Source of the DNA: Actinomycetota bacterium
GTDB lineage: Bacteria > Actinomycetota > Actinomycetes > Propionibacteriales > Propionibacteriaceae
NCBI GenBank assembly: GCA_020161795.1
Contig: JAIUOR010000033.1
Location: 112,379 to 176,378, forward strand
DNA: 64,000 nt
Reading direction: 5' to 3'
A program made the translations under genes and the position numbers. Positions 8,164 through 31,103 of the stretch are shown here, one piece after another; the stretch's first letter is position 1, and every line of letters begins with the position of its first letter. The notes below the pieces were generated by a model. It ran no database searches, was not told the DNA's origin, and saw nothing but the letters and a program-made list of their open reading frames with translations.

Positions 8164-9153
8164 TCAGTGCTCGTAGTAGTGGTCGCCATGGGCCGCGTGG
8201 CGGTGCCCGTCGTGGACGTAGTCGATGTGACCGGCATGCTCGACGGCCACGTGCTCGCAGCCGGGGCCGTGGACGTGCGGGTGGTCTTCGGTGACCTGCT
8301 CGGGGAGTGGCTCGTCGTCCGGCGATCCCACCTCGATCGGGCGGTCCGGGCGTCCCTGCAGCAGGCGGGAGACCGGCCAACTGGCGGCGAACAGCAGGAT
8401 CGCGATCACCACGATCAGCGCGCCGGGAGCGGTGTTGAGGTAGTACGAGCCGATCGTCCCGGAGACCGCTGCCGTCGCGCCCAGCCCCATGGAGACGAAC
8501 AGCCCGGCCCGGAAGCCGGTGGCCAGCTGGGTTCCGGTCGCCACCGGAACCACCATCAGCGCGCTCACCAGCAACAGGCCGACGGTGCGCATCGAGACGG
8601 TGACGGTGATCGCGGCCAGCGCCACCACGAGGATGTTCAGCCACCGGGTGGGCAGCCCGATGGTGCGGGCGAAGGGCTCGTCCGCCGAGACCGCGAAGAG
8701 CTGGGGCATCAGCCCGATGGCGACCAGCAGCACGACCGCTCCCAGCACGGCGATCGCCCAGAGGTCGGCGGCGCCCACCGTGAGCAGGGAGCCGAACAGG
8801 TAGCCGGCTAGCGCTCCCGCGCCCTGACCGGCGAAGGCGGCCAGCAGCAGGCCGCCGGCCAGGCCGCCGTAGAAGATGATCGCCAGCCCGACGTCGCCAT
8901 GGGCACGGCCGGATTCGCGCAGCAACTCGATGCCCACCGCGCCGATCACGCAGACCGCGATCGCCAGCGGCAGTGGAGCGGCTCCGGTCAGCATCGCCAG
9001 GCCTACGCCGGCCACCGCCAGGTGGCCCAGGCCGTCGCCGAGCAGGCTGAGCCGGCGCTGCACGATGTAGGTGCCGATGGCCGGCGCGGTGACGCCGGTG
9101 ATGACGGCGGCCAGCAGCGCTCGTTGCATGAATTCCAGGGCGAGCCAGTCCAT
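8164..9153 (-). CDS. znuB: Zinc/manganese-type ABC permease with His-rich C-terminal tail
   Basis: The 329-residue protein is an ABC-3 family permease with about eight helices. It opens with MDWLALEFMQRALLAAVITG and contains the RRLSLLGDGLGHLAVAGVGL block of ZnuB/TroC permeases. Its ATG overlaps the znuC stop by one base (TGATG), which sets the start. After the last helix, about 40 cytoplasmic residues are packed with histidines and match the separate 49-residue peptide encoded at 11127-11276 at 24 of 37 positions, including CxH and HDGHRHA motifs. Ordinary ZnuB proteins lack such a tail, so this looks like a fusion of a zinc-binding module to the permease. Confidence 0.88.
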   Translation of the reverse strand: MDWLALEFMQRALLAAVITGVTAPAIGTYIVQRRLSLLGDGLGHLAVAGVGLAMLTGAAPLPLAIAVCVIGAVGIELLRESGRAHGDVGLAIIFYGGLAGGLLLAAFAGQGAGALAGYLFGSLLTVGAADLWAIAVLGAVVLLVAIGLMPQLFAVSADEPFARTIGLPTRWLNILVVALAAITVTVSMRTVGLLLVSALMVVPVATGTQLATGFRAGLFVSMGLGATAAVSGTIGSYYLNTAPGALIVVIAILLFAASWPVSRLLQGRPDRPIEVGSPDDEPLPEQVTEDHPHVHGPGCEHVAVEHAGHIDYVHDGHRHAAHGDHYYEH

Positions 9154-9929
9154 CACAGCGCCTCCAGCCCGGTCTGGTGGGGACGGGGACGGTTGGCGGC
9201 CAACTCGCTGATCTCGTGGCCCCCGTGGTGGTGGGAGGGATCGGGGGTGTGCGGCACCACCCGTCCGTCCTGCACGAAGATGGTGCGGTCGATCACCTCG
9301 GCGAAGGGACCGAGTTCGTGCAGCACCATCACGACCGTGACGCCGTCGGCGATGAGCCGGCGGGCGACATCGGCGAGCAGTTGCTGGGTGACGTGGTCGA
9401 CCCCGGCCAGCGGTTCGTCCCAGAGCATCAGCTGGGCGCCCGAGGCCAGTGCCCGGGCGATCAGGACGCGTTGCTGCTGACCGCCGGAGAGCCGGACGAA
9501 CCGGTGCCGGGCCCGCTCGGTCAGGTCGACCGCGGCCAGGGCGTCGGCGATCGCCTGCTTGTCGGCGGCGGATTCGGGCCAGAACGCGCGGCGATGGCCC
9601 AGGCGCCCGCTGGCGACCACCTCGCGGGCGGTGGCCTGCTGCACCAGGATGCCGCTGCGCTGGGGCACGTAGCCGAGCTTGTTCCAATCCCGGAAGTCCT
9701 CCAGCCGGGTGCCGAAGAGCTCGACCTCGCCGCGATGCGGGACGAGGCCGAGCAGGGCACGCATCAGGGTGGTCTTGCCGGAGCCGTTGTTGCCCAGGAT
9801 GGCGACCGCCTCGCCCTGGGTGATCGCCAGGTCGACGTCGCGGACGATCGGGACGCCGCCCAGCAGCACGCCGAGGCCGGCGGCAGAGATCGCCGCCGGC
9901 CCCGGTGCCTGCTCAGAGGTCAGCCGCAC
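9153..9929 (-). CDS. znuC: Zinc ABC transporter ATP-binding protein
   Basis: The 258-residue ATPase has Walker A GNNGSGKTT, signature LSGGQQQR and Walker B LMLWDEPLAGVD. The C-terminal end is rich in histidines (SHHHGGHEISE). It lies between znuA (10-nt overlap) and znuB (1-base overlap) and powers zinc import with them. Zinc rather than manganese is assigned from the Zur-type box in front of znuA. Confidence 0.88.
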   Translation of the reverse strand: MRLTSEQAPGPAAISAAGLGVLLGGVPIVRDVDLAITQGEAVAILGNNGSGKTTLMRALLGLVPHRGEVELFGTRLEDFRDWNKLGYVPQRSGILVQQATAREVVASGRLGHRRAFWPESAADKQAIADALAAVDLTERARHRFVRLSGGQQQRVLIARALASGAQLMLWDEPLAGVDHVTQQLLADVARRLIADGVTVVMVLHELGPFAEVIDRTIFVQDGRVVPHTPDPSHHHGGHEISELAANRPRPHQTGLEAL

Positions 9930-10936
9930 TGGTTGGCTGTCCGCAGGGAAGCCAGGTTGGAGCGCATCACCTCAAGGTAGTCGTTTCCGCGGGATTCCGG
10001 GGTCAGTCCCTCCAGCGGATCCAGCACGTCGGTCTTCAGCCCCAGGTCTCCGGCGATCGATTCCGACACCACCGGGGAGACCAGGGTCTCGAAGAAGATC
10101 GTGGTCACGCCCTCGGCCTTGGCGATCTCGTGCACTTCGGCGATCCGCGCGGCGGTCGGCTCCACGTCCGGCTCGACGCCGCGGATGCCGACCTGCTCCA
10201 GGTCGTAGCGGTGGGCGAGGTAGCCGAAGGCGGCGTGCGAGGTGATGAAGGCGTGGATCTGGCAGTTGGCCAGGCCGGCCTTGAACTCGCCGTCCAGGAC
10301 TCCGAGGTCGTTGAGCAGGAGGTCGGTGTTGACCTTCAGGGTCTCGGCCGCCTCGGGGCGGGCGTCGATCAGGGCATCGCGGACGTGCTCGGCGACCGTG
10401 GCCAGGTTGGTCGGGTCGAGCCAGGTGTGGGGGTCGAGCCCGCCCTCCTCGTGCTCGTCCTCGTGGGCCTCTTCGTCGTGATCGCCGTCCTCGTCATGGC
10501 CGGCTTCCTCCCCGTGACCGTGGCCGTCGTCGACCGTGGCCGGGATGAGCTTCAGGAAGGAGGCGGCGTCCACCGTCCGCTGTGCGTTGGCCTGGGCCAG
10601 CGCGGCGTCGACGGCGGGCTGGAAGCCCTCCTGGAAGACGACCAGATCGGCTGAGGAGAGCAGGGCCACCTGCTGTGGCGCCAGTTCGAGATCGTGGGGT
10701 TCGGCGCCCGGGGCGGTCAGGTTCTCGACCGTGACCAGGTCCCCGCCCACGCGCTCGGCGACGAACTGGAAGGGGTAGAAGGCCACCGCCACCGAGAGTT
10801 GCTCGGTCTGGGCGGCGCCCGGGGTGCTGGCCCCCGGCGAGGTGGGAGTCCCGGCTGGGGTGGAACAGGCCGCCAGTGAGGTCAGAGCGAAGGCGGCGCC
10901 CACCAGGAAGGCAGCAGGACGAGCAGAAAATGTCAT
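9920..10936 (-). CDS. znuA: Zinc ABC transporter substrate-binding lipoprotein
   Basis: The 338-residue protein belongs to the ZnuA/TroA cluster A-1 binding proteins. It has a signal peptide with lipobox SLAAC. An acidic/His-rich loop (repeated GHGH, HDE, EDEH units, about residues 125-160) lies before the conserved DPHTWLDP block. His residues at SHAAFGYLAHRY and the FFETLVSPVV region complete the metal site. The reading frame extends seven codons further up to 10957, but those codons lie inside the Zur box and have no ribosome site, so the ATG at 10936 (MTFSARP) is the better start. Confidence 0.9.
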   Translation of the reverse strand: MTFSARPAAFLVGAAFALTSLAACSTPAGTPTSPGASTPGAAQTEQLSVAVAFYPFQFVAERVGGDLVTVENLTAPGAEPHDLELAPQQVALLSSADLVVFQEGFQPAVDAALAQANAQRTVDAASFLKLIPATVDDGHGHGEEAGHDEDGDHDEEAHEDEHEEGGLDPHTWLDPTNLATVAEHVRDALIDARPEAAETLKVNTDLLLNDLGVLDGEFKAGLANCQIHAFITSHAAFGYLAHRYDLEQVGIRGVEPDVEPTAARIAEVHEIAKAEGVTTIFFETLVSPVVSESIAGDLGLKTDVLDPLEGLTPESRGNDYLEVMRSNLASLRTANQCG

Positions 10937-10950
10937 GGTAATCATTCTCA
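10936..10950 (-). promoter_or_regulatory. Zur box in front of znuA
   Basis: Read on the minus strand the site is TGAGAATGATTACCA, matching TGAnAATnATTnTCA at 14 of 15 positions or better. A TATGAG -10-like hexamer overlaps it, and the transcript would begin close to the chosen znuA ATG. Binding of zinc-loaded Zur here would block transcription. Confidence 0.78.
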
Positions 10951-10957
10951 TACTCAT

Positions 10958-11287: not shown

Positions 11288-11602
11288 TCAGGGTGCGGCC
11301 CCGGGATCCGGTGCCGCTGATTCATTGACATGGACGAGCGCGTCGGAGATGACGTGGCTGACATGCTGGTCGGCCAGCCGGTACGCCACCTCCTTGCCGC
11401 TGCGGACGGCGGTGACCAGCCCGCTCTGCCGCAGCGTTCGCAGGTGCTGGGAAACCAGCGGTTGGGACATCTCGGTGGCCTCCACCAGGGCGCCGACCGT
11501 ACGGGAACCGGAGCCGAGCAGAAGCAGGATCTGGAGCCGGGATTCGCTGCCGAGCACGCGGAAGAGTTGCGCGGCCTCGACCAGCCCCGGTTCGGTATCC
11601 AT
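11288..11602 (-). CDS. smtB: ArsR/SmtB-family zinc-responsive repressor
   Basis: The 104-residue winged-helix protein has the DNA-recognition helix MSQPLVSQHLRTLRQSGLV. The C-terminal helix carries D78, H80, H91 and E94, exactly the D-x-H-(10)-H-x-x-E spacing of the alpha-5 zinc site of SmtB. Zinc binding releases such repressors from DNA. The ATG at 11602 was chosen over an upstream start at 11689, because the longer reading would run through the operator at 11619-11649. It is co-transcribed with the His-rich peptide. The same operator lies in front of zur, so this regulator probably controls zur as well. Confidence 0.85.
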   Translation of the reverse strand: MDTEPGLVEAAQLFRVLGSESRLQILLLLGSGSRTVGALVEATEMSQPLVSQHLRTLRQSGLVTAVRSGKEVAYRLADQHVSHVISDALVHVNESAAPDPGAAP

Positions 11603-11618
11603 GCGAGCAGTCAACCAC

Positions 11619-11649
11619 ACATATAAACACATTGCGATATGTCTATGGA
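11619..11649. promoter_or_regulatory. Operator shared by smtB and zur, copy 1
   Basis: This 31-bp site lies 17 nt in front of the smtB-like gene. It contains CATAT-N12-ATATG and is 28/31 identical to the site at 30631-30661 in front of zur. The two copies point in opposite directions relative to their genes, as expected for a protein-binding palindrome rather than a promoter. Binding by the SmtB-like protein is inferred. Confidence 0.75.
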
Positions 11650-11684
11650 TCGATGTCCCTCTCGTCCCGTCCCCCGATCTCCCG

Positions 11685-11759
11685 CGCACAAACCGGGTGA
11701 TTCCGGGCCTCTGAGTGGACTATCCAGGCAGGGCGGCCAGATTGCCCGGTTTCTGCGGG
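11685..11759 (+). repeat. 75-nt palindromic element, family 1, copy 1
   Basis: The ends GCACAAACCGGGTGA and TTGCCCGGTTTCTGCGG are imperfect inverted repeats, and the centre holds ACTATCCAG. It matches copies at 25615-25692, 47673-47747, 48444-48518 and 49476-49550. It lies between the smtB operator and the end of the oxidoreductase-methyltransferase gene. Confidence 0.8.
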
Positions 11760-15157: not shown

Positions 15158-15418
15158 TCACTCCTTCTCCTTGTCGGTGCGGGAGTAGCGCCGGCGGAAC
15201 TTCTCGACCTGGCCCGCGGTGTCGACCACCCGGGAGGTGCCGGTCCAGAACGGGTGGCTGGCGGCGGAGATCTCGACGTCGATCACCGGGTAGGTCCGGC
15301 CGTCGGTCCACTCGACGGTGCGCGTGGAGGTGGCGGTCGAACGGGTCAGGAAGGCCAGGTCGGCCGAGCGATCGCGGAAGACCACCGGCCGGTACTCGGG
15401 GTGGATGCCCTGCTTCAT
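15158..15418 (-). CDS. rpmE2: Ribosomal protein bL31 type B (zinc-free)
   Basis: The 86-residue protein [16 protein letters not shown]... has the type B features: [25 protein letters not shown] and no cysteines, so it cannot hold the zinc of the standard L31. It is the last gene of the rpmB-rpmG-rpsN-rpmE2 unit. Type B copies replace zinc-binding L31 when zinc is scarce and so free zinc for other proteins. Confidence 0.93.
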
Positions 15419-15422
15419 CGCG

Positions 15423-15728
15423 TCACCAACTCGACTTCACGATGCCGGGCAGTTCGCCGCGGTGGGCCAGCTCCCGCAACCGGATCCGGGAGAGCCCGAA
15501 TTGACGGACGAAGGCCCGCGGACGGCCGTCCACCGCATCCCGGTTGCGCAGCCGCACCGGGCTCGCGTCGCGGGGCAGCCGGTGCAGCGCGGCCATGGCG
15601 GCCTCGCGTTCCTCCGCCGACAGCCGGGGGTCGACCGAGCGGCGCTTCAGCTCCGCGTGCACGGCCGCGTATCGGGCGACGATCTGGCGTCGCTTCGCGT
15701 CCTTGGCGACGTTGCTCTTCTTGGCCAT
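15423..15728 (-). CDS. rpsN: Ribosomal protein uS14, zinc-free form
   Basis: The 101-residue protein begins [20 protein letters not shown] and ends [20 protein letters not shown]. This is the long uS14 form without the C-x-x-C pairs of the zinc-binding short form. The ATG overlaps the rpmG stop by one base (TGATG). It is part of the zinc-starvation ribosomal set. Confidence 0.93.
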
Positions 15729-15898
15729 CAGCGGGCCTCCTTGAATTCGACGTGACGGCGGACGATCGGGTCGTACTTCCGCAGCACCATCCGCTCCGGA
15801 TCGTTGCGCCGGTTCTTGCGGGTGACGTAGGTGTAGCCCGTGCCGGCGGTGGAGCGAAGCTTGATCACGGGCCGCAGTTCGGTGCGTTTGGTGGCCAC
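15728..15898 (-). CDS. rpmG: Ribosomal protein bL33, zinc-free form
   Basis: The 56-residue protein begins (M)[20 protein letters not shown] and ends [12 protein letters not shown]. It has no cysteine, unlike the zinc-binding bL33. It starts at a GTG that overlaps the TAG stop of rpmB (TAGTG) and ends in a one-base overlap with rpsN, so translation of the three genes is coupled. Confidence 0.92.
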
Positions 15899-16134
15899 TA
15901 GAACTGCTCCCCACGCGCCTGGAGGCGCCGCACCACCGCATCGATGCCGAGCCGGTCGATGGTGTGGATGCCGCGGGTGGACACCGTGAGGGTCACGTAC
16001 CTGCCCAACGAGGGCGCCCAGTAGCGCTTGCGCTGAAGGTTGGGATTCCAGCGCCGGCGGGTGCGGCGGTGCGAGTGGGAGACATTGTTCCCGAATCCGG
16101 TGGTGGTGCCGAGAACCTGGCAGCGCTTGTGCAT
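15898..16134 (-). CDS. rpmB: Ribosomal protein bL28, alternative form
   Basis: The 78-residue protein has the L28 core [20 protein letters not shown] and [13 protein letters not shown]. It has a single cysteine (Cys5), so the four-cysteine zinc site of some L28 proteins is absent. It is the first gene of the four-gene zinc-free unit. The -10-like TATATT lies only about 8 nt before the ATG, so the message is probably leaderless or nearly so. Confidence 0.92.
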
Positions 16135-16153: not shown

Positions 16154-16168
16154 TGAGAATCATTCGCA
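16154..16168. promoter_or_regulatory. Zur box in front of rpmB
   Basis: The site TGAGAATCATTCGCA matches TGAnAATnATTnTCA with one mismatch. It lies 20-34 nt before the rpmB start, overlapping the -35/-10 region. Zur control of zinc-free ribosomal protein genes is well established in actinobacteria. Confidence 0.82.
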
Positions 16169-16915: not shown

Positions 16916-16930
16916 TGAGTATTGTTATCA
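16916..16930. promoter_or_regulatory. Candidate weak Zur box in front of HU
   Basis: TGAGTATTGTTATCA matches TGAnAATnATTnTCA at all but two fixed positions. It lies just upstream of a TTAGAT -10-like hexamer on the minus strand and so would block the HU promoter. Confidence 0.5.
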
Positions 16931-17225: not shown

Positions 17226-17240
17226 TGAGAATGGTTATCA
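17226..17240. promoter_or_regulatory. Zur box in front of the anchored-repeat operon
   Basis: TGAGAATGGTTATCA matches the palindrome with one mismatch. It starts 30 nt before the first ATG and is followed at once by an AAGGAAGG ribosome site, so it overlaps the promoter and start-point region. It links the whole five-gene operon to zinc. Confidence 0.78.
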
Positions 17241-17255
17241 AAAAGGAAGGCGATC

Positions 17256-20200
17256 ATGCTCCGGCTCCGAGTCCTGTCGATCCTGCTCGCCGCGGGCCTG
17301 CTCCTCGGCCCCGTGGGTGCGCCGCTGATCGCGTCGGCGGAGGAGCCGGTGCCCAGCCCGGTTGTGAGCGAGGCGACCTCGCCGAGCCCCGAACCGGAAG
17401 CGACCGCTGAACCGGCTCCGAGCCCTAGCGCGGCGCCGGCACCCGAGGCGACATCGGATCCGCATGGGCCGACGCCGGAGCCGGCGGAAGGCGACCAGAC
17501 AGGGCACGACGCGAGCTCAACCGAGTCGCCGGTCCGTGAGCCGAGCGCACCGGCGGAGCCCACCGTGAGCGTGGAGACGCCGTCCGCCGAGCCGTCCGAA
17601 GCGCCCTCGCTGCCCGGTCCGGAGGCCGACCCCTCCGAGCTGCCGACGCCGGATTCGACGAAGACGCGCCGGAGCCTGGCCCGAGCGGTGGTGGGCGAGG
17701 TGGGCAGCGGTGTGCGTTCGCGAGTGCTCACCAAGGGCCACATCGATCTGTTCGAGGTCACCTGGAACGGCGGGCTCAGGCTGAGCGTGAAGGACGACAC
17801 CAACCTGTACTCCGCCGGTTCGCAATACCGAAGCCCGGCCGATGTCACGATCTGGGTCGACACCGGCGGCTCGACGCTGCAGGTGCCGGCCGCCCCGGGC
17901 TATGGCTTCCTCGGCAACCCCGGCGACACCATCTACCACCTACCGCTGAGCCAGGATCCAGAACTGCCGTGGCCGGGGTGGAGCACCGAACGTCTGCTGG
18001 GTACGCTCCCGTCCGAGACCCAGCTGCCCAACTCCGCCGACGCCGTCCGGTTGGCCGTGGAGGTGACCGGCCCGGGAGAGGTGTTCAGCTGGATGACCGG
18101 GGGTTTCGGCACGGTGACCAACCGGTACGTCGATACCGTCGATCCGGCCCCCGACGTGATCCCGATCAGCCGCAATGCCCACGTCCACACCGCCTGGGCG
18201 TTCACCCGGCCGGGCGACTACTACCTCTCGGTGACCCCGACGGCGACCACGACCGGCGGCGACCTCCTGACCGGCGACACCGCCGTCTATCACGTGCGGA
18301 TCGCCCCGATCGCCGGCGCCGCCCCCACCGCGACCAGCACTCCCACCATCAGCGGGGACGCCACGGTGGCGAGCACGCTGACGCTGGCTCCCGGCGACTG
18401 GCATCCCATGCCCCACCAGGTGAGCCAGCAGTGGCTGCGGGACGGGCAGCCCATCGCGGGAGCCACCGGGCGCAGCTACACCACCACGCAGGCCGACGAC
18501 GGACGCACGGTCAGCGCCCGCGTGACGGCCGCGATCAGTACCGCCTCCCGGACGGTGCCGGCCGCGGGCATCGCGATCGGCGCGACGACGGCACCGTCCC
18601 CCACTCCCACTCCCACGACGACCCCGAGCCCGAGGCCGAAGCCAACTCCCACCTCGGCTCCGACCGCCACCCCGAAGCCAACCCCGAGGCCTACCGCCAC
18701 GCCCACCCCGAGACCCAGCCCGACTCCCTCCTCGAGCGGACCGCGCTGGAAGGTGGCGAACGGGACGCGCACCGAATCCGGCGCCGCCATCCTCAATCTG
18801 GGGCATGTGGATGTCGCCTCCCTGCTGTCCGGGAAGAAGCTGGTCACCAGGGTGAAGGACACCACCGAATCCTCCGTCCCGGTCTGGCGGGAGCCGGAGC
18901 AGACCGTGCTGCAGGTGCTGCCGAACTCACGGGTCAGCATCCCGGCCGACGACGCCTATCGCTTCCTCGGAAAGCCCGGTGCCGCCAGCTGGCTGCTCCC
19001 CGAGACCCAGGACGCAGCGCTGTTGTGGCCGGGCTGGTCGACCGAGGAGATCGCCACCGACGCCACCCGGACCACCTTCGACTGGACCCTGACGGGGGTC
19101 GACGGCCCCGGCGAGTTCGCCCTCTTCACCAGCGGTGGCTTCGGCGTGCCGCAGGTGCACTTCAACACCCGGGACGGCCTGCCCGACACGATGCCGATCG
19201 ACAGGCGGGTGCACGTCCATGGCTCCTGGGCGTTCAGCGCCGAGGGCACCTACTGCCTGGCGTTCACCCGCGCCACGACCCTGGCCGGCGGCACGCGGGT
19301 GAGCGATGACTTCACCCTGGCGATGGCGGTCGGTGACGTCGAGGTCCGCAAGGTCGATCCGTCCCGCTGTGCCGAGCCTGCTCCCGGGAAACCCAGCACG
19401 ACGCCAGCCCCCGACCCGTCGCCCACCGCCACAGCCACCCCGACCCCGGACCCGAAGCCCACCAAGCAGGCCAGTAAGGCCGCCAACCGGAAGTGCGTCT
19501 CCGGCGCGACGATCCTCTCGGCCGGCCACATCGACTACGCCTCGCGGATCGTGGGCGGCAGGCTGCAGTCGCTGATCGGCGACGACACCGGCGGCAAGAA
19601 GGTGTACCGGGAACCCTCCGGGGTCATCCTCTGGTTGAAGCCCTCGGCCCAGGTCACCCTGCCGTCCGGCTACGGCCGGATCGGCAAGGCGGGGGCGAAG
19701 ATCTGGCAGGTGCCCCAGACCCAGGTTCGGGATCTGATCTGGCTGGGCTGGAACACCGAGTTGCTCAATGCCGGCAACGCCAAGGGCGCGGTGACCTGGC
19801 GCCTCGACTCGGTGCGCGGGCCGAGTTCGGTCAAGGTCTACCTCTCCGGCTCCTTCGGCGGGGTCTCCACCATGGTGCTGAAGGGTGCCGGGTCGAGCTA
19901 CCAGATCCCGCTGGGAGTTCACGCCCACGCCAACTGGGCGTTCAGCAAGCAGGGCGTCTATCGCCTGAAGATGACGCAGACCGTCACCCTCGCCAACGGC
20001 AAGCGCTCCTCGGATACCGAGACCCTGACCATCGCCGTGGGCGATGTCGACCCGGCCTCCGCAGGCTCCGGCTCGGGCTGCGGCACGGTGTCCCAGGCGA
20101 AGGCCTCCGGCGTCGATACGACGACGGACGCGGCGACGGAACTGAAATCGGCCGAGCAGGCCGAGGCCGAAGCGGCCGAGAACGCCGATCAGGCGCCCGT

Positions 20201-20390
20201 CCGAGGCCAGCCCGGGCAACCGGGTGGGCGCGGACCTCGTCCGGTGACCGCGGACGATCCGGCTGCCGAGGGAGGGGAGCCCCGGACGAGTTCGGTGCCG
20301 ATGCTGCTCTCCGTACTGGGCGGTCTGCTGCTGGCCGGCGCGGCCGGAACCGGCGGCCTGTGGCTGGGACGACGCCAGGGCAGCGCGTGA
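17256..20390 (+). CDS. Surface protein with three choice-of-anchor M domains, membrane-anchored
   Basis: The 1044-residue protein has a signal peptide (residues 1-29), then a Pro/Ser/Glu-rich stalk. Three CAM (TIGR03769-type) domains lie near residues 155-350, 505-705 and 745-930. Each shows GHID/GHVD, YxFLGxPG, WPGW or WLGW, GPG, and H-x-H-x-x-WAF-x-x-PG-x-Y. An Ig-like domain (about 355-445) and Pro/Thr linkers lie between them. The C-terminus is a membrane helix (about 1008-1030) with a short basic tail and no LPxTG. Repeated His and aromatic residues make metal or ligand binding possible. Function is unknown. The Zur box and downstream metal-type transporter point to zinc uptake. Confidence 0.85.
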   Translation: MLRLRVLSILLAAGLLLGPVGAPLIASAEEPVPSPVVSEATSPSPEPEATAEPAPSPSAAPAPEATSDPHGPTPEPAEGDQTGHDASSTESPVREPSAPAEPTVSVETPSAEPSEAPSLPGPEADPSELPTPDSTKTRRSLARAVVGEVGSGVRSRVLTKGHIDLFEVTWNGGLRLSVKDDTNLYSAGSQYRSPADVTIWVDTGGSTLQVPAAPGYGFLGNPGDTIYHLPLSQDPELPWPGWSTERLLGTLPSETQLPNSADAVRLAVEVTGPGEVFSWMTGGFGTVTNRYVDTVDPAPDVIPISRNAHVHTAWAFTRPGDYYLSVTPTATTTGGDLLTGDTAVYHVRIAPIAGAAPTATSTPTISGDATVASTLTLAPGDWHPMPHQVSQQWLRDGQPIAGATGRSYTTTQADDGRTVSARVTAAISTASRTVPAAGIAIGATTAPSPTPTPTTTPSPRPKPTPTSAPTATPKPTPRPTATPTPRPSPTPSSSGPRWKVANGTRTESGAAILNLGHVDVASLLSGKKLVTRVKDTTESSVPVWREPEQTVLQVLPNSRVSIPADDAYRFLGKPGAASWLLPETQDAALLWPGWSTEEIATDATRTTFDWTLTGVDGPGEFALFTSGGFGVPQVHFNTRDGLPDTMPIDRRVHVHGSWAFSAEGTYCLAFTRATTLAGGTRVSDDFTLAMAVGDVEVRKVDPSRCAEPAPGKPSTTPAPDPSPTATATPTPDPKPTKQASKAANRKCVSGATILSAGHIDYASRIVGGRLQSLIGDDTGGKKVYREPSGVILWLKPSAQVTLPSGYGRIGKAGAKIWQVPQTQVRDLIWLGWNTELLNAGNAKGAVTWRLDSVRGPSSVKVYLSGSFGGVSTMVLKGAGSSYQIPLGVHAHANWAFSKQGVYRLKMTQTVTLANGKRSSDTETLTIAVGDVDPASAGSGSGCGTVSQAKASGVDTTTDAATELKSAEQAEAEAAENADQAPVRGQPGQPGGRGPRPVTADDPAAEGGEPRTSSVPMLLSVLGGLLLAGAAGTGGLWLGRRQGSA

Positions 20391-22018
20391 GCGGGGGACG
20401 GAGCGCCGACGCCCGGGGGAGCGGTCGAGCCGTCCCCGGGCCGCGCTCCTCCGGGGGGCGTCTGGTGGCAGCCGCCCTGGCCGGCGGACTGCTGCTCTCC
20501 GGATGTGCGGCGAAGCCCGCCCTGGTCGCCCAGAGCGAGCGGCCTCAGGTGGTCACCACCACCGGGCTGCTGCGCGACCTGGCGCAGCAGGTGGGCGGTG
20601 AGCGGGTGTCCGTGGTGTCGCTGATCCCGGATTCCGCCGACCCGCACACCTACGAGCCGACGCTGCGGGACGCCCGCAACGTGGTGTACGCCGACGTCGC
20701 CTTCAGCAACTACGCGCTGCTGGAGGAACACAACGTCATCAAGACCCTGGACGCCAACCTGCGCGACGAGGCGGTCAGCGTCTCGCTGGTGGAGGAATCG
20801 GTGAAGTACGCCGCCGAGCTCATCCCGCTGGTCGAGAACGTCAACCTCGACACCATCTGGCTGGGCCTGCGGGCCCACGGCGACGGACGCGCTCACGGTG
20901 CCACCCGGACCTCCGAGGTGCTGCTGTCGGTGGTGGACGCCACCGGGCCGGGCAACGTCTACGCCTACCTCACCGGCACCTTCGGCGACACCGATGTCTA
21001 CTTCGACTCTTCCGACGGGTTCGACGCCGCCACCGGCTACCGGGACGACACCATGAGTATCCCCGCCGACGCCCACACCCACCTCTCCTGGGCGTTCAGT
21101 GCCCCAGGCGTCTACACGCTCGCCATGCGCGCCCGGCTGCAGGCGGACGACACCTCCCGTCCGGTCCCGCTGGGAGAGGCCACCTTCACCTTCGCGGTCG
21201 GCGTGAACCCCGCCGAGGCCGGCGTCCCGGACGCGGTGGTGCTCGACCGGGGCCACGCCGACCTGACCGCGAACCTGGACACCCGCTCGCTCGAGGTGCG
21301 CTACGACCCCGAGGGCGGCGGCGCGCACAGCCAGCAGGCGCTGCGTCCCGACCAGGTGGTGATCGACGTCCCGGCCAAGTCGCTGGACGAGGTGCCGGCC
21401 GGACGCCAGTTCGGCTTCCTCGGCAAGCCGGGGACCCAGGTGTACCAGCTCGCCCAGGCGGTGCTCGGCAAGCACGTCCACGGCGAGCTCGACCCGCACC
21501 TGTGGCAGAACGTGCGCAACGCGATGGCCTACGTCCAGCTGATCCGCGACACCCTGGTGGCCGCCGACCCGGCCGGAGCGGCCGAGTACCGCCGGAACAC
21601 CAGTGCCTACCTGACCGAACTCGAGGTGCTCGACGACTACGTCCGCGACACCCTGGCCGCGATCCCGCCGGGCAACCGCTACCTGGTCACCACCCACGAC
21701 GCCTTCGGCTACCTGGCCAAGGCCTACCACCTCCAGGTCGCCGGCTTCGTGACGCCCAACCCGGCCGCCGAGCCGTCCCTGGCCGATCGCCGCAAGCTCA
21801 CCGAGACCCTGCGCAGCCTGCGGCTCCCGGCGGTCTTCCTGGAGCCCAACCTGGCAGCCCGCTCCTCCACCCTCACTGAGGTGGCCGCCGAGCAGGGGGT
21901 CGCGGTCTGCCCGATCTACGGCGACACCTTCGACTCCCAAGTCACCAGCTACGCCCAGTTGATGCGCTTCAACGCCGACTCGCTGCGCGACTGCCTGGGC
22001 ACCCGAACCCCGAAATGA
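20387..22018 (+). CDS. Metal-type substrate-binding lipoprotein with inserted, permuted CAM domain
   Basis: This 543-residue lipoprotein starts at a GTG overlapping the previous stop by 4 nt and has lipobox LLSGC (Cys40). The ZnuA-like N-lobe (VVTTTGLLRDLAQQVGG, SADPHTYEP) runs to about residue 150. The ZnuA-like C-lobe resumes at GELDPHLWQNV (about 366) and continues through TTHDAFGYLAKAY to EPNLAARSS. Between the lobes is one CAM domain in swapped order: the WLG...GPGNVYAY...HTHLSWAF half comes first and the GHADL...FGFLGKPG half second. The family is known from anchored-repeat ABC systems (TIGR03772-type). Ligand unknown, zinc inferred. Confidence 0.87.
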   Translation: MSGGRSADARGSGRAVPGPRSSGGRLVAAALAGGLLLSGCAAKPALVAQSERPQVVTTTGLLRDLAQQVGGERVSVVSLIPDSADPHTYEPTLRDARNVVYADVAFSNYALLEEHNVIKTLDANLRDEAVSVSLVEESVKYAAELIPLVENVNLDTIWLGLRAHGDGRAHGATRTSEVLLSVVDATGPGNVYAYLTGTFGDTDVYFDSSDGFDAATGYRDDTMSIPADAHTHLSWAFSAPGVYTLAMRARLQADDTSRPVPLGEATFTFAVGVNPAEAGVPDAVVLDRGHADLTANLDTRSLEVRYDPEGGGAHSQQALRPDQVVIDVPAKSLDEVPAGRQFGFLGKPGTQVYQLAQAVLGKHVHGELDPHLWQNVRNAMAYVQLIRDTLVAADPAGAAEYRRNTSAYLTELEVLDDYVRDTLAAIPPGNRYLVTTHDAFGYLAKAYHLQVAGFVTPNPAAEPSLADRRKLTETLRSLRLPAVFLEPNLAARSSTLTEVAAEQGVAVCPIYGDTFDSQVTSYAQLMRFNADSLRDCLGTRTPK

Positions 22019-22034
22019 CAACGAGAGACGCCTG

Positions 22035-22988
22035 ATGAGAGAGATCCGAACCCTCCGCCGCGCCGGCTGGATCGCGGTGGCCGCGCTGGGCCTGAGCCTG
22101 CTTTCCGTCCCCGCTCACGCCGAGACCGAACCGCCGGAGGACCCCAACCTGCAGCAGTCGGTCTCCGCCGGCCAGGAGATCGTCACCGGTGCCAAGGTGC
22201 TGGACGCGGGCCACGTCGACATGGGCCCGAAGTTCGACGACGGACGGTGGACGCTGCTGGTCCACGACGACGCGGCCAAGGCCTCCGCCGACGCGACCAG
22301 CGTGTGGCGCTACCCGGACCAGACCGTGATGCACGTACGGGACCAGTCCAAGCTCGTCATCCCGGACGACCCCGCCTACGAGTTCCTCGGCGCCGCGCCC
22401 GGCAGCGAGGTCTGGGTGGTGCCGCAGACCCAGAACCCCGAGGTGGTCTGGCTGGGCTGGAACACCCAGGATCCCGACGTGATGGTGGCCATCGACCGCG
22501 GTGTCACGCTCTCGCTGAGCGGCGTCCAGGGGCCGGGTGAGGTGACGGTCTACCTGCAGTCCGGCAGCTTCGGCGAGCCGCAACTGCTGTGGGATTCGCG
22601 GGTCGAGGGCAGCCAGCCGATCTGGGTGGACGTCAACACCCACACCCACGCCAACTGGGTGTTCACCGCGCCCGGGGTCTACCTGATGCGGCTCACCGCC
22701 GAGGCCGACCTGGTCGCCGGCGGCACCGCCGGCGACACCCAGCTGCTCCGGTTCGCCGTCGGCACCGCGACCTCCACTGAGGAGGCGCTGGCCGCGGTCT
22801 GGGAGGGGGAGCCCATGCCGGAGGCCTCCGCCCCGGTTGTCTCGCCAGTCGCGCCCGAGGCCGGGCCCGATCAGGATCCGCTGGTGGCCGGGTTCGTCCT
22901 GGTGCTGGTACGCGGCAACCGCGCCCGGGCGCAGGTACTGGACGCCCGCGTCAAGGACGGCGCGGACGAGGGGAGAGACGATGGCTGA
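22035..22988 (+). CDS. Secreted single choice-of-anchor M domain protein
   Basis: The 317-residue protein has a signal peptide ending near AHAET (about residue 30). One complete CAM domain spans about 52-245 (AGHVDMG, YEFLGAAPGSEVW, VVWLGWNTQ, GPGEV, HTHANWVFTAPGVYL). An Ala/Pro/Glu-rich tail ends in a short hydrophobic patch with basic residues, too short for a sure membrane anchor. It overlaps the ATPase gene by 8 nt. It presumably works with the binding lipoprotein and the three-domain surface protein. Function unknown. Confidence 0.83.
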   Translation: MREIRTLRRAGWIAVAALGLSLLSVPAHAETEPPEDPNLQQSVSAGQEIVTGAKVLDAGHVDMGPKFDDGRWTLLVHDDAAKASADATSVWRYPDQTVMHVRDQSKLVIPDDPAYEFLGAAPGSEVWVVPQTQNPEVVWLGWNTQDPDVMVAIDRGVTLSLSGVQGPGEVTVYLQSGSFGEPQLLWDSRVEGSQPIWVDVNTHTHANWVFTAPGVYLMRLTAEADLVAGGTAGDTQLLRFAVGTATSTEEALAAVWEGEPMPEASAPVVSPVAPEAGPDQDPLVAGFVLVLVRGNRARAQVLDARVKDGADEGRDDG

Positions 22989-23787
22989 GCTCGGAACGGT
23001 GGCGGAACTTGTCGAAGCCTCGTCGCCGACCGCCGCCGCCTCAGCTGCGCTGGAGGTGCGGGAGGTCTTCGTCGAGCTCGGCGGGAGGCCGGTGCTGGAG
23101 CACGCCAATCTGACCATCGACCACGGTGAACTGGTCGGGCTGATCGGGCCCAACGGCGCCGGCAAGACCACCCTGCTGCGCACCATCCTGGGCGTCCAGC
23201 GCGCGGTGGGCGGTGAGGTGACGGTCGAGGGGAGGCCCGCCCGTCCCGGCCGCACTCCGATCGGCTACGTGCCCCAACGGCACGAGTTCGCCTGGGAGTT
23301 CCCGATCTCGATGGCGGACACCGTGATGACCGGCCTCACCCGGCAACTCGGGCTGCTCCGCCACCCTCGCGAGCGGCACTGGCTGGCGGTCGCCGACGCC
23401 CTCGACCGGGTGCGGATGACCCACCTCGCCAAGCGCCCGATCGGCCAGCTCTCCGGCGGCCAGCGGCAGCGGGTACTGGTGGCCCGGGCGCTCGCGCTGC
23501 GCCCGGCCGTCCTGTTGCTGGACGAGCCGTTCACCGGCCTCGACATGCCCGCCCAGGAGTTGCTGTCGGAACTCTTTACCGACCTCGCGCGGGAGGGACG
23601 CGCGGTGCTGATGGCCACCCACGACCTGGCCAGCGCGCTCTACACCTGCGACCGGATCGCGCTGCTGAATCGCACCGTGGTCGCGACCGGCGCGCCGTCC
23701 GTCCTGGCCGCGGACACCGCGGTGTGGAGCGACACCTTCGGCGTCGGCGAGAACTCGGCCCTGCTCCGCATCCTGAAGGCCGCCTGA
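22981..23787 (+). CDS. Anchored-repeat-type ABC transporter ATP-binding protein
   Basis: The 268-residue ATPase has Walker A GPNGAGKTT, signature LSGGQRQR and Walker B VLLLDEPFTGLD. It is close to ZnuC/TroB-type metal ATPases, with about 30 extra N-terminal residues. The ATG at 22981 overlaps the previous gene. With the permease and the CAM-containing binding protein it forms a complete importer. Confidence 0.88.
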   Translation: MAELGTVAELVEASSPTAAASAALEVREVFVELGGRPVLEHANLTIDHGELVGLIGPNGAGKTTLLRTILGVQRAVGGEVTVEGRPARPGRTPIGYVPQRHEFAWEFPISMADTVMTGLTRQLGLLRHPRERHWLAVADALDRVRMTHLAKRPIGQLSGGQRQRVLVARALALRPAVLLLDEPFTGLDMPAQELLSELFTDLAREGRAVLMATHDLASALYTCDRIALLNRTVVATGAPSVLAADTAVWSDTFGVGENSALLRILKAA

Positions 23788-27351: not shown

Positions 27352-28857
27352 TCAGATGACCGTGATCAGCACCAGGCCGCGGTAGGTACCCGGCGAGGTG
27401 GTGGTCGGAGCCTCGATCCGCAGATCGGCCCCGAGCACCGCGGTGCCCGTGCCGGCGCCCGCCGGCGCCGAGCCGAGGGCGTTCCAGCCCGAGATCCCGT
27501 TGCCGGCGGCGAAGCCCGGCGCGACCGCGTCACCGGCGGTGACCGTCTGGCCGTCGCTCGCCGAGACGACCTTCGGCGTCCAGCCGAGGTACTTGCCCGC
27601 CAGTTGGGCGCCATCCACGGTCACCAGACCGCGCACCCGGCCGTTGGCCGTCCAGCCCGGGGCGCCCGAACGGGTGTCGGTCACCGTGATGCCGGTGATC
27701 GAACCCTGGGACACGTAGCGATCCGCGGCGCCGTTCAGGGTCAGGTCACTCAGGGTGCTCGACTTCCCCTCGTCGGAGACGCTGATCGTCAGCGCCCCCT
27801 GCTCGACGGGCAGCGCGACCTCCAGTTCCGGGCCGAAGCCGGGGGTGTTGCCGTGGTCGTCCACCACGATGGCGGCCGGCTCGGTCTCGGCGATCACCTG
27901 GGGATCGTGGTCATAGAGCACCGCCTTGACCTGCATGTCCTTGGTCACCACGAAGCCGTAGCTCTCGGTGAGGGCGCCGTTCACCACGACCCACGGCAGA
28001 TCCTCCGAGCCGCGCGCGAACCAGTGGAAGTGGTCCGAGACCGGGGCCGGCGACTGCACGGCGGTCAGGGTGGCGACCCCGCCGGCGTGGTAGTGGGCGG
28101 CAACCCCGCTGAGGCTCAGCGTGGTGTCACCCGGCTCCGGTTCGGGTTCGGGTTCCGGCTCTGGCTCCGGTTCCGGCTCCTCGAGCGGCTCCACCACGAA
28201 GGTGTAGGTCGCGGTGTTGCTGGTCGAGGTCAGCTCGCCGTTCTTGCTGGTGGCCTTCGCCTGGGCGGTCAGGGTGTAGGTGCCCGGCTCGGTGAAGCCC
28301 CAGTTGGCGTGCACGTGCGCCAGGTAGGTCTGGTGGATGGTGCCAGGGATCTTCCAACTGTCGTTGAGCAGCTTGACGGGCTCACCGAAGGGATCCGTCG
28401 CCCACAGGAAGACCTCGCCTGGGCCGTCGACGGAACTGATGGTGATGTCGACGCCGGCGTCCATCCCGTAGGCGGAGGCCAGGCCCATGCTGTCCCAGCC
28501 GGGCCAGATCAGGTCGGGATTCTGGGTCATCGACAGGAACCACATGGTGGTCGGGGTGCCCGGCGGCAGGTAGAAGGCCGGCAGGTTGTCCCGGTGGGCC
28601 GCCTTCTTCACGAACAACTCCACCGATTCCGGCGCGCGCATCACGTGCGAGCCGGTGACGTCCTCCTTGAGATTCAGCCGGATGGTGTTGTCGTCGTTGA
28701 GGGCCACGTTGAAGGCATCGATATGCCCGGTGGTGAACTGGATCGGTTCGTCCAGGTCGGCGGCGTGCGCCGCCGTCGCGGCGAACGGTGCGGTCACCAC
28801 GGCGACGGCCAGAGCCGCCAGCGTGGCGAGCGCCGTTCTCGGTTTCGTGAGGGTCAT
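27352..28857 (-). CDS. Choice-of-anchor M surface protein with C-terminal WxL-like domain
   Basis: The 501-residue protein has a signal peptide ending at AHAAD and one CAM domain (about residues 40-225: TTGHIDAFNV, LIWPGWDS, GPGEVFLW, AHVHANWGFTEPGTYTL). An (EP)n linker and a His-containing Ig-like segment follow. The C-terminal ~160 residues resemble a WxL domain (VTDTRSGAPGWTA, LGWTPKV, AVLGADLRIEAPTTTSPGTY). The start at 28857 follows an AAAGGAC ribosome site; an upstream start at 28947 has no signal. A Zur box lies upstream and a DUF916 partner downstream. Confidence 0.8.
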   Translation of the reverse strand: MTLTKPRTALATLAALAVAVVTAPFAATAAHAADLDEPIQFTTGHIDAFNVALNDDNTIRLNLKEDVTGSHVMRAPESVELFVKKAAHRDNLPAFYLPPGTPTTMWFLSMTQNPDLIWPGWDSMGLASAYGMDAGVDITISSVDGPGEVFLWATDPFGEPVKLLNDSWKIPGTIHQTYLAHVHANWGFTEPGTYTLTAQAKATSKNGELTSTSNTATYTFVVEPLEEPEPEPEPEPEPEPEPGDTTLSLSGVAAHYHAGGVATLTAVQSPAPVSDHFHWFARGSEDLPWVVVNGALTESYGFVVTKDMQVKAVLYDHDPQVIAETEPAAIVVDDHGNTPGFGPELEVALPVEQGALTISVSDEGKSSTLSDLTLNGAADRYVSQGSITGITVTDTRSGAPGWTANGRVRGLVTVDGAQLAGKYLGWTPKVVSASDGQTVTAGDAVAPGFAAGNGISGWNALGSAPAGAGTGTAVLGADLRIEAPTTTSPGTYRGLVLITVI

Positions 28858-28950
28858 GCCTGTCCTTTCATAAGGGGACCGCGGGCGGGTGTGTGCCGGC
28901 GTCCACCCGCCCGCGTACAGTGCGCAGGAGCAGCGCACCTCTGACATTAA

Positions 28951-28965
28951 TGAAAATGATTATCA
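28951..28965. promoter_or_regulatory. Zur box in front of the CAM/WxL gene
   Basis: TGAAAATGATTATCA is a full match to TGAnAATnATTnTCA and the best copy in the window. It lies about 95 nt before the chosen start, which leaves room for a 5' leader. Confidence 0.83.
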
Positions 28966-29113: not shown

Positions 29114-30253
29114 TTACGGGCTGGGCGTGTCGGTGCGCAGCATCAGCGGCAGCGATGCGGCCGCGATGGGCCCGAGCCAGGGCTCGAATCCGTCCTCGTC
29201 CACCCGCCAGCGAGCGCCGCTCTCGGCTAGCTCGGCGTCGGTGAGCAGGCACCGGTGAAACCGCACCGCGAGCTGGTTGACCTGTTCGGAGCTCCAGTCA
29301 CCGGTGATCACGAGCCGGGTGAAGGGGCTCTCGTCGTCCCAGCAGTCGACCACGCCGATGGTGAGGTGGCCGCCGCTACCCTCCCAGGCGCAGACCTCGT
29401 GGGGCCGGGAGGCGAGCCAGAAGCAGCCGCGGGAGCGGTGCCGTCCACTGCCCATCGCCTCGATCTCCGCCATGAAGCGCTCCGGGTGGAAGGGCCGCTC
29501 GGAGACCAGGTCGAGCTGCCAGACCTGCCGGCCGGTGAGCGGGGCCAGTGGCTCGCGCCGGACGGTCGCGGTCCAGGCCTCGCTGCGCGCGGTGTCGTGC
29601 CCCGTGGTCAGCAGCTCGGCGGCGCTCGGCCCGAAGAGGCCGGTGTGGATCCCGGCGCCCGGCCGGGCGAGGGCGGCCAGCAGCTCGGACGCGGTCTGGT
29701 CGGCGCCGTCCACGCAGATCAGGGCGTCGGCGTACTCCAGTTGGCCGGCGAGGACCTCGCCGACGCCGCGGTCGTCGTCGGGCACCGACTCGGCCCCGAT
29801 GTCGGTGAGGCCGGCGCCGCCCAGCAGGTCCTCGGTGAGGCTGCTGCCGCGTAGCGCGGCGATCACCGTGGCCACCTTCACCGCCCGGCGCAGTCTCCGG
29901 CTGTCGGCGATCATCCGGCACAGGTGCCGCGCCTCGGCCGACAGCGGGAGGTGCACGATGATCGACTCCCAGCGGCGCTGGGCGGCGAGTCGTTCGATGG
30001 TGGGCAGGATGTCCTCGCGCAGGGCGCAGCCCACGCACAGGTGATCGAGGTCGACGACCTCCTCTTCGATCACGCCGCCGGCGTCGCTGACGGTTCGGGT
30101 GAGGGTGACCGCCGCGGGGTCGATGTGGTGACGGACGACGACTGCTCGCGGCAGATCCCACTGCAGCCCGACGGTGACGGCGGCCATGGAGGGAGCGTGG
30201 ACGCCGGTCACGACGATCAGCGGAATCGGGGTGGGGCGGAACTGGCGGGCCAC
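29114..30253 (-). CDS. CobW/COG0523-like protein without a P-loop
   Basis: The 379-residue protein starts at a GTG. It keeps several CobW-family features: the N-terminal strand LIVVTGVH, the cysteine motif region CVGCALREDI (in place of C-x-C-C) and a C-terminal CobW domain (about residues 245-345, SERPFHPERFM...RSRGCFWLASRP). The GKT of Walker A is missing (GVHAPSMAA), so GTP hydrolysis in the usual way is doubtful. Similar degenerate, Zur-controlled proteins exist in other actinobacteria. A zinc-chaperone role under zinc starvation is inferred from the Zur box upstream. Confidence 0.75.
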   Translation of the reverse strand: MARQFRPTPIPLIVVTGVHAPSMAAVTVGLQWDLPRAVVVRHHIDPAAVTLTRTVSDAGGVIEEEVVDLDHLCVGCALREDILPTIERLAAQRRWESIIVHLPLSAEARHLCRMIADSRRLRRAVKVATVIAALRGSSLTEDLLGGAGLTDIGAESVPDDDRGVGEVLAGQLEYADALICVDGADQTASELLAALARPGAGIHTGLFGPSAAELLTTGHDTARSEAWTATVRREPLAPLTGRQVWQLDLVSERPFHPERFMAEIEAMGSGRHRSRGCFWLASRPHEVCAWEGSGGHLTIGVVDCWDDESPFTRLVITGDWSSEQVNQLAVRFHRCLLTDAELAESGARWRVDEDGFEPWLGPIAAASLPLMLRTDTPSP

Positions 30254-30274: not shown

Positions 30275-30289
30275 TAAGAATCATTTTCA
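30275..30289. promoter_or_regulatory. Zur box in front of the CobW-like gene
   Basis: TAAGAATCATTTTCA (reverse TGAAAATGATTCTTA) matches the palindrome with one mismatch. It lies 22 nt before the CobW-like GTG and 25 nt before a possible small ORF on the plus strand, so it could control both. Confidence 0.78.
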
Positions 30290-30704: not shown

Positions 30705-31103
30705 ATGGTGGGCACCGCGCCGGCAACCCGCCGCACCGCGCAGAAGGAGGCGGTCTGGCAGGCCCTGGAGAGTTCTCCCGGCTTCGTCTCCGCTCAGGAT
30801 CTGCACCAGCAGCTGGTGGCGGCCGGAGCTTCGGTCGGGCTGGCGACGGTCTACCGGCAGCTGGCGGCGCTCGCCGCCGAGGGCCGGGCGGACACCATCC
30901 CCGATGCCGGTGGCCTGCTCTACCGCGTGTGCGCTCCGGGCGGCCATCACCATCATCTGGTCTGCGAATCGTGCGGCAGGGCCGTGGAGATCCAGCCTCC
31001 GCTGGAGGATTGGATCCGCCAGACCGCCCAGGACAGCGGCTACACCATCACGCGCCACGTACTGGAGGTCTTCGGCACCTGCCCGCAGTGCGCCGCCCGG
31101 TAG
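30705..31103 (+). CDS. zur: Zinc uptake regulator, Fur family
   Basis: The 132-residue protein has an N-terminal winged helix (LATVYRQLAALAAEG recognition region) and a Fur dimerisation domain. GGHHHHLVCESCG carries Cys87 and Cys90, and CPQC carries Cys126 and Cys129; together they form the structural zinc site. H81-H84 and Cys76 are candidates for the sensing site. Zur rather than Fur is assigned because all the boxed operons nearby are zinc functions. No Zur box precedes it, only the smtB-type operator. Confidence 0.87.
   Translation: MVGTAPATRRTAQKEAVWQALESSPGFVSAQDLHQQLVAAGASVGLATVYRQLAALAAEGRADTIPDAGGLLYRVCAPGGHHHHLVCESCGRAVEIQPPLEDWIRQTAQDSGYTITRHVLEVFGTCPQCAAR

Follow-up and report, generated by a model that had tools for sequence, protein, structure and literature searches.

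Among the closest described counterparts of the system treated here is ZnuA of C. diphtheriae, and the accessible part of the paper describing it together with ZnuE, ZnuF and ZnuG (PMC12445094) already reports HxD and HxH motifs in reversed order in ZnuA, apart from the ZnuA ligands. As far as the same part relates, ZnuE and ZnuF bind zinc in thermal shift assays, in which His-to-Ala mutants still respond, and the His residues matter for growth. This ZnuA is taken to be the TroA/DIP0438 of PMC6711530, in the available sections of which dip0438 is called an anchored repeat substrate-binding protein (SBP) and is repressed by zinc and Zur. The D-loop of AztC, with its three His residues, is given as essential for zinc transfer from AztD in the available text of PMC7463823, and the engineered protein RG13, according to extracts of PMC3375305, is a permuted beta-lactamase placed in maltose-binding protein, with maltose as regulator and zinc as inhibitor. 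Here we analysed a stretch of 64,000 nucleotides (the window) from an Actinomycetota bacterium of the Propionibacteriaceae (contig JAIUOR010000033.1) and, within it, the gene at 20387-22018, whose product is a predicted ATP-binding cassette (ABC) transporter lipoprotein of the TIGR03772 family, in which a CAM domain stands in circularly permuted order inside a ZnuA-like fold.

The CAM profile NF038134, run against the 67 contigs of the window's genome, returned seven matches, every one inside the window. Five of them are near full-length and linear, running in a single piece from profile position 1-3 to 183-184 (three in the 17256-20390 protein, one in 22035-22988 and, on the minus strand, one in 27352-28947), which bears out the claim that the other CAM domains of the window keep the usual order. 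In the 20387-22018 protein, profile positions 74-184 stand ahead of 1-73, the break falling between 73 and 74 with no profile position lost, and both blocks lie between the N-lobe and the DPHLWQ block of the ZnuA-like fold, as the original prediction had stated. The motifs follow one another as WLG, GPGNV, HTHLSWAFSAPGVY, GHADL, FGFLGKPGTQVYQL and DPHLWQ; the order that had been described stands, with the small correction that the W-x-GW motif of ordinary CAM domains reads WLGL in this protein.

For the rotation tests a CAM hidden Markov model (HMM) was built from 56 sequences of one CAM subfamily, namely the single-CAM protein of the window and 55 relatives taken from a list of 119 others. 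The unrotated insert matched this model in two pieces of 41.8 and 9.3 bits, whereas the insert rotated at residues 274-282 gave one match of 58.9-59.2 bits over model positions 5-182 of 197; since residue-shuffled inserts reached 1.8 bits at most, the swapped order is beyond chance. Among 81 inserts (79 distinct) from the window and the best 80 of 316 loci found in named genomes, the rotated form scored best in every case, with a gain above 5 bits in 78 and of 3.5-4.0 bits in three Lentzea inserts. In a sample of 80 out of 313 canonical CAM domains (single matches spanning more than 150 model positions), no domain gained more than 0.7 bits on rotation. The comparison was widened to 228 entries, comprising the 80 loci, the window, 120 listed database proteins and 27 loci from class and phylum searches, with 209 distinct cores and the window gene included twice (WIN, L008). 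Inserts measure 188-245 residues across these entries, and the gain exceeds 5 bits in 224; of the remaining four, three are the Lentzea inserts and one is L141, the most divergent member. As the entries were chosen with a profile of permuted members (score above 300), an SBP with an ordinary-order CAM domain could escape detection. Outside ZnuA, swapped halves alone were found in none of the 263 further frames of the 80 loci that carry CAM domains, and none of 1365 matching records in a plasmid collection covered 80% of the 20387-22018 protein.

AlphaFold2 models of the 20387-22018 protein and of the single-CAM protein, read together with their alignment, placed all 16 strands in correspondence after rotation, and the rotated insert shares 35% identity with the ordinary CAM domain. 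The models predict one intact CAM fold whose ends have moved to what was the QTQ loop. In a quick tree built from 125 CAM domains of the window and 25 of the 80 loci (26 rotated, 99 ordinary), the permuted domains fell on one side of a branch with a Shimodaira-Hasegawa-like approximate likelihood ratio (SH-aLRT) support of 100 and a long stem of 1.2 changes per column; one long-branched ordinary domain (L071) joined the permuted side with weak support of 61, accompanied by a tree-program warning. The grouping fits a single origin of the permuted CAM domains. The rotation tests, the predicted strands and the tree together support circular permutation as originally proposed, and neither a pair of unrelated folds nor the ordinary linear order, the outcomes named as refuting it, appeared.

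As for the seat of the domain, the host freed of its insert was aligned to the ordinary ZnuA-type protein of the window (9920-10957, minus strand), and the join fell at the His-rich loop; H87, H371 and H437 face His in this alignment and D513 faces Leu. The AztC profile match also breaks at the insert position. The insert ends 13 residues ahead of ligand H371, with the HVHG stub lying between the CAM domain and H371, and by these alignments it occupies the place of the His-rich D-loop of ordinary ZnuA proteins. H87, H371, H437, H230, H232, H290, D292, H363 and H365 are kept in all 228 entries and D513 in 227 (a gap in L111), counts which are favoured by choosing the set with a profile of such proteins. 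The ordinary ZnuA-type protein carries a long His/Asp/Glu-rich loop and has a ZnuC-like ATPase (9153-9929, named by eye) after it, and an ArsR/SmtB-like regulator (11288-11689, minus strand, by eye) lies near these genes. The His-loop ZnuA and the CAM-insert protein are thus both present in one genome.

Membership of the TIGR03772 family, which the original prediction had given as known, was corroborated by a score of 739.6-739.8 bits over profile positions 1-486 against a curated cut-off of 350.45. Pfam ZnuA (PF01297) matches the protein in two stretches, and the ZnuA fold and His/His/His/Asp site of cluster A-I metal SBPs are present; the His-rich flexible D-loop of the zinc type is absent from this protein, the CAM insert standing there with HVHG alone remaining. 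The protein scores 189.8 bits with the AztC family NF040870, under its cut-off of 350. With NF038134 it reaches 96.4 bits over the two stretches, passing the cut-off of 55 and departing from the family in linear order. The adjoining permease (TIGR03770, 451.3 bits) and ATPase (TIGR03771, 336.7 bits) are both above cut-off, and CAM proteins stand on either side, which we take to be the typical setting of TIGR03772 genes. The open reading frame (Table 1) runs from a GTG start at 20387 to a stop at 22018, with a lipobox-like LLLSGC ending in Cys40, which is conserved in at least 90% of set A1. Of 394 genomes of the class, 27 hold a TIGR03772 match with an E value no worse than 1e-60, each near whole-profile and above cut-off, and matches above cut-off occur in 3 of 396 genomes drawn over the phylum, the window's own genome being counted in both. 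Some match at E 0.001 was seen in 254 of the 396, and among the matches listed those under the cut-off concern the ZnuA part. L141 has the lowest TIGR03772 score of the class search (487.5 bits).

Upon the swapped order, the full-length CAM match on swapping back, the place of the insert, the residue conservation and the one-branch grouping, all established from sequence, we build the reading that we favour somewhat over doubt: that the whole permuted CAM domain at the D-loop place catches zinc and hands it to the adjoining ZnuA cleft. Zinc would leave wall-bound CAM proteins, acting as donors, for the permuted CAM pocket, pass along the conserved HVHG stub to the ZnuA site of H87, H371, H437 and D513, and go from there to the permease. 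By analogy, such a relay would play, within one chain, the part that the D-loop plays in the transfer of zinc from AztD to AztC. More tentatively, the protein may be a two-site relay in one chain, in which the opened QTQ loop of a permuted surface zinc domain is plugged into a ZnuA-type D-loop and the HxD/HxH pocket is aimed at the cleft, making it a built-in counterpart of the chaperone AztD and a parallel in nature to the permuted-domain insertions that have been engineered.

Several observations weigh against this relay or the structural reading beneath it. Secondary-structure agreement is not discriminating by itself: it amounts to as much as 83% at other rotations, and scores of up to 157 are still obtained when the cut lies over 20 residues from the optimum. 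The predicted local distance difference test (pLDDT) value averages 76.6 over the whole model, falls below 50 at the insert joints (residues 135-154 and 360-362) and stands at 46-64 in ten-residue block averages over residues 91-140 of the first lobe; owing to these low values, closeness of the CAM and ZnuA sites is unsupported by the model. The proposal that the CAM domain is fixed directly over the metal site is thus half supported, by the place of insertion and its nearness to H371 and not as to a rigid fix or the orientation over the cleft. L141 gains 0.1 bits on rotation and scores 12.8 bits with the CAM HMM, its halves being hardly recognised, while its His motifs are kept with HxH ahead of HxD. 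Exact Zur-like sites occur in just 26 of the 80 loci. As far as the accessible part of PMC12445094 goes, ZnuE with His changed to Ala keeps its shift on addition of zinc, leaving HxD/HxH unproven as a zinc site, and the znuA mutant of C. diphtheriae has a weak phenotype. No measurement of zinc binding by the permuted domain was found in the literature searched.

The rival that survives best is that the permuted CAM domain is a docking module, pairing with the wall-bound and ZnuE-like CAM domains and bringing them to the transporter, while the ZnuA cleft receives zinc straight from the pockets of those domains. In its favour, the fetched DNA of all 80 loci encodes one or more additional CAM domains outside the SBP frame, and in 65 the SBP gene is immediately followed by a single-CAM frame; we regard it as unlikely, and a pure docking module has no obvious need of the full HxH/HxD set kept in all 228 entries. 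Less probable still is a lid or conformational switch, with the ZnuA cleft opening or closing upon zinc binding by the CAM domain, in the manner of engineered permuted-domain insertions. The insertion at the D-loop place shortly ahead of H371 and the precedent of RG13 (available extracts of PMC3375305) speak for it, but the low pLDDT at the joints suits a tethered domain better than tight coupling. That the halves fold separately as small units, or are a fragment of a CAM domain that has decayed, with no permuted fold, as the two partial matches of linear profile searches might suggest, is close to refuted by the single near full-length match on rotation, the 16 strands corresponding in rotated order and the motif residues invariant in the 228-entry set.

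The permutation may have arisen through capture by the carrier of a stretch that began midway in one CAM repeat and ended midway in the following one. The linkers between tandem copies measure 23-265 residues (median 62; 91 pairs), and in a test of such tandem capture, with the halves coming from different CAM paralogs, both scored best with the broad "other single" profile in 78 and 81 of 81 inserts, that profile being the most diverse.

Table 1. Features of the permuted-CAM lipoprotein gene and its operon (window coordinates)
Feature	Position	Strand	Basis
Zur-box-like palindrome, upstream of operon	17226..17240	+	Exact match to the presumed consensus TGANAANNNTTNTCA
Surface protein, three tandem ordinary-order CAM domains and C-terminal hydrophobic stretch	17256..20390	+	Profile match
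TIGR03772 substrate-binding lipoprotein, 543 residues (ZnuA fold with permuted CAM insert)	20387..22018	+	Open reading frame and profile matches
Hydrophobic leader and lipobox-like end, predicted lipid-anchor Cys40	20465..20506	+	Sequence
ZnuA fold, first part, residues 54-145; ligand H87 in PHTYEP	20546..20821	+	
CAM second half, standing first: profile 74-184, residues 150-271; WLG, GPG, HxHxxWxF	20834..21199	+	NF038134
HxH motif, H230 and H232	21074..21082	+	228/228 entries
Linker joining former C and N ends of CAM domain, residues 272-284	21200..21238	+	NF038134; rotation optimum at about residue 278-279
CAM first half, standing second: profile 1-73, residues 285-358; GHxD, FLGxPG	21239..21460	+	NF038134
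HxD motif, H290 and D292	21254..21262	+	228/228 entries
ZnuA fold, remainder, residues 362-538; expected ligands H371, H437, D513	21470..22000	+	
HVHG stub, H363 and H365, between CAM and DPH; possible His-loop remnant	21473..21484	+	228/228 entries
Single-CAM protein, ordinary order; ZnuE-like by place and architecture	22035..22988	+	Profile match
ABC ATPase, TIGR03771	22981..23787 (scanned as 22978-23787)	+	Profile match
ABC permease, TIGR03770	23724..24680	+	Profile match

The pattern TGANAANNNTTNTCA, presumed to represent the Zur-box consensus, had no exact match in the 80 reversed controls, and with at most one mismatch it occurs at 6 sites in the window against 0.16 expected; sites of this type are probably Zur boxes. 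An exact one (28951-28965) stands just ahead of the start of the further ordinary-order CAM protein at 27352-28947 (minus strand). One-mismatch sites lie at the start of the ordinary ZnuA gene (10936-10950), at 16916-16930, which has no clear gene assigned to it and where the minus-strand frame contains stops, at 30275-30289 with a CobW/ZigA-like GTPase (29114-30253, minus strand; NF047431, 131.6 bits, under the cut-off of 375), and at 16154-16168 beside a row of small ribosomal-protein-like frames (15158-16134, minus strand; L28-like, L33-like, S14 and L31-like, S14 by Pfam and the others by eye), which are likely a zinc-free spare set. A Fur-family regulator (30705-31103, plus strand, Pfam FUR) is likely Zur by its neighbourhood.

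In the literature searched, with subscription papers and database family notes mostly outside it, no paper was found naming a circular permutation of the CAM domain of TIGR03772 or ZnuA. The main text of PMC12445094 lacks the words permut- and insert-; four other papers mention anchored-repeat or choice-of-anchor M proteins in passing (expression results, a mutation list) without the word permut-; "circularly permuted" in PMC7701253 concerns an ATP-grasp protein; and the CIRPIN preprint lacks zinc and ABC transporter terms. The switch of domain order is thus less new than the original prediction had taken it to be, as the reversed HxD/HxH is in print in the accessible part of PMC12445094. The TIGR03772 family and the motif reversal being already known, what is added is a whole-domain circular permutation at the D-loop place, by which the published oddity of ZnuA is explained and the route of zinc from wall to membrane in Gram-positive actinobacteria is made testable. 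To our knowledge, circularly permuted domains within another domain are rare, and permuted-domain insertions have been made by engineers as switches; the one described here is natural and conserved across the gathered TIGR03772 members.

Overall, in comparison with the known systems, the 20387-22018 protein is a full-length member of TIGR03772 (anch_rpt_subst, anchored repeat ABC transporter substrate-binding protein), and no difference from that family was found, the permuted insert being seen in every member gathered, with L141 less certain for its gain of 0.1 bits on rotation. For ZnuA of C. diphtheriae, the accessible part of PMC12445094 treats the feature as a reverse-orientation motif with a shorter spacer of 45 residues, whereas here it is a whole permuted domain at the D-loop place. 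With the NF038134 type of CAM domain (ZnuE, ZnuF, ZnuG, CmrA) the insert shares the predicted strands, HxD and HxH, and it differs in its swapped segments, its ends moved to the QTQ loop and its seat inside another domain. Where AztC and ordinary ZnuA proteins carry a flexible His loop, the protein of the window carries a domain and an HVHG stub instead.
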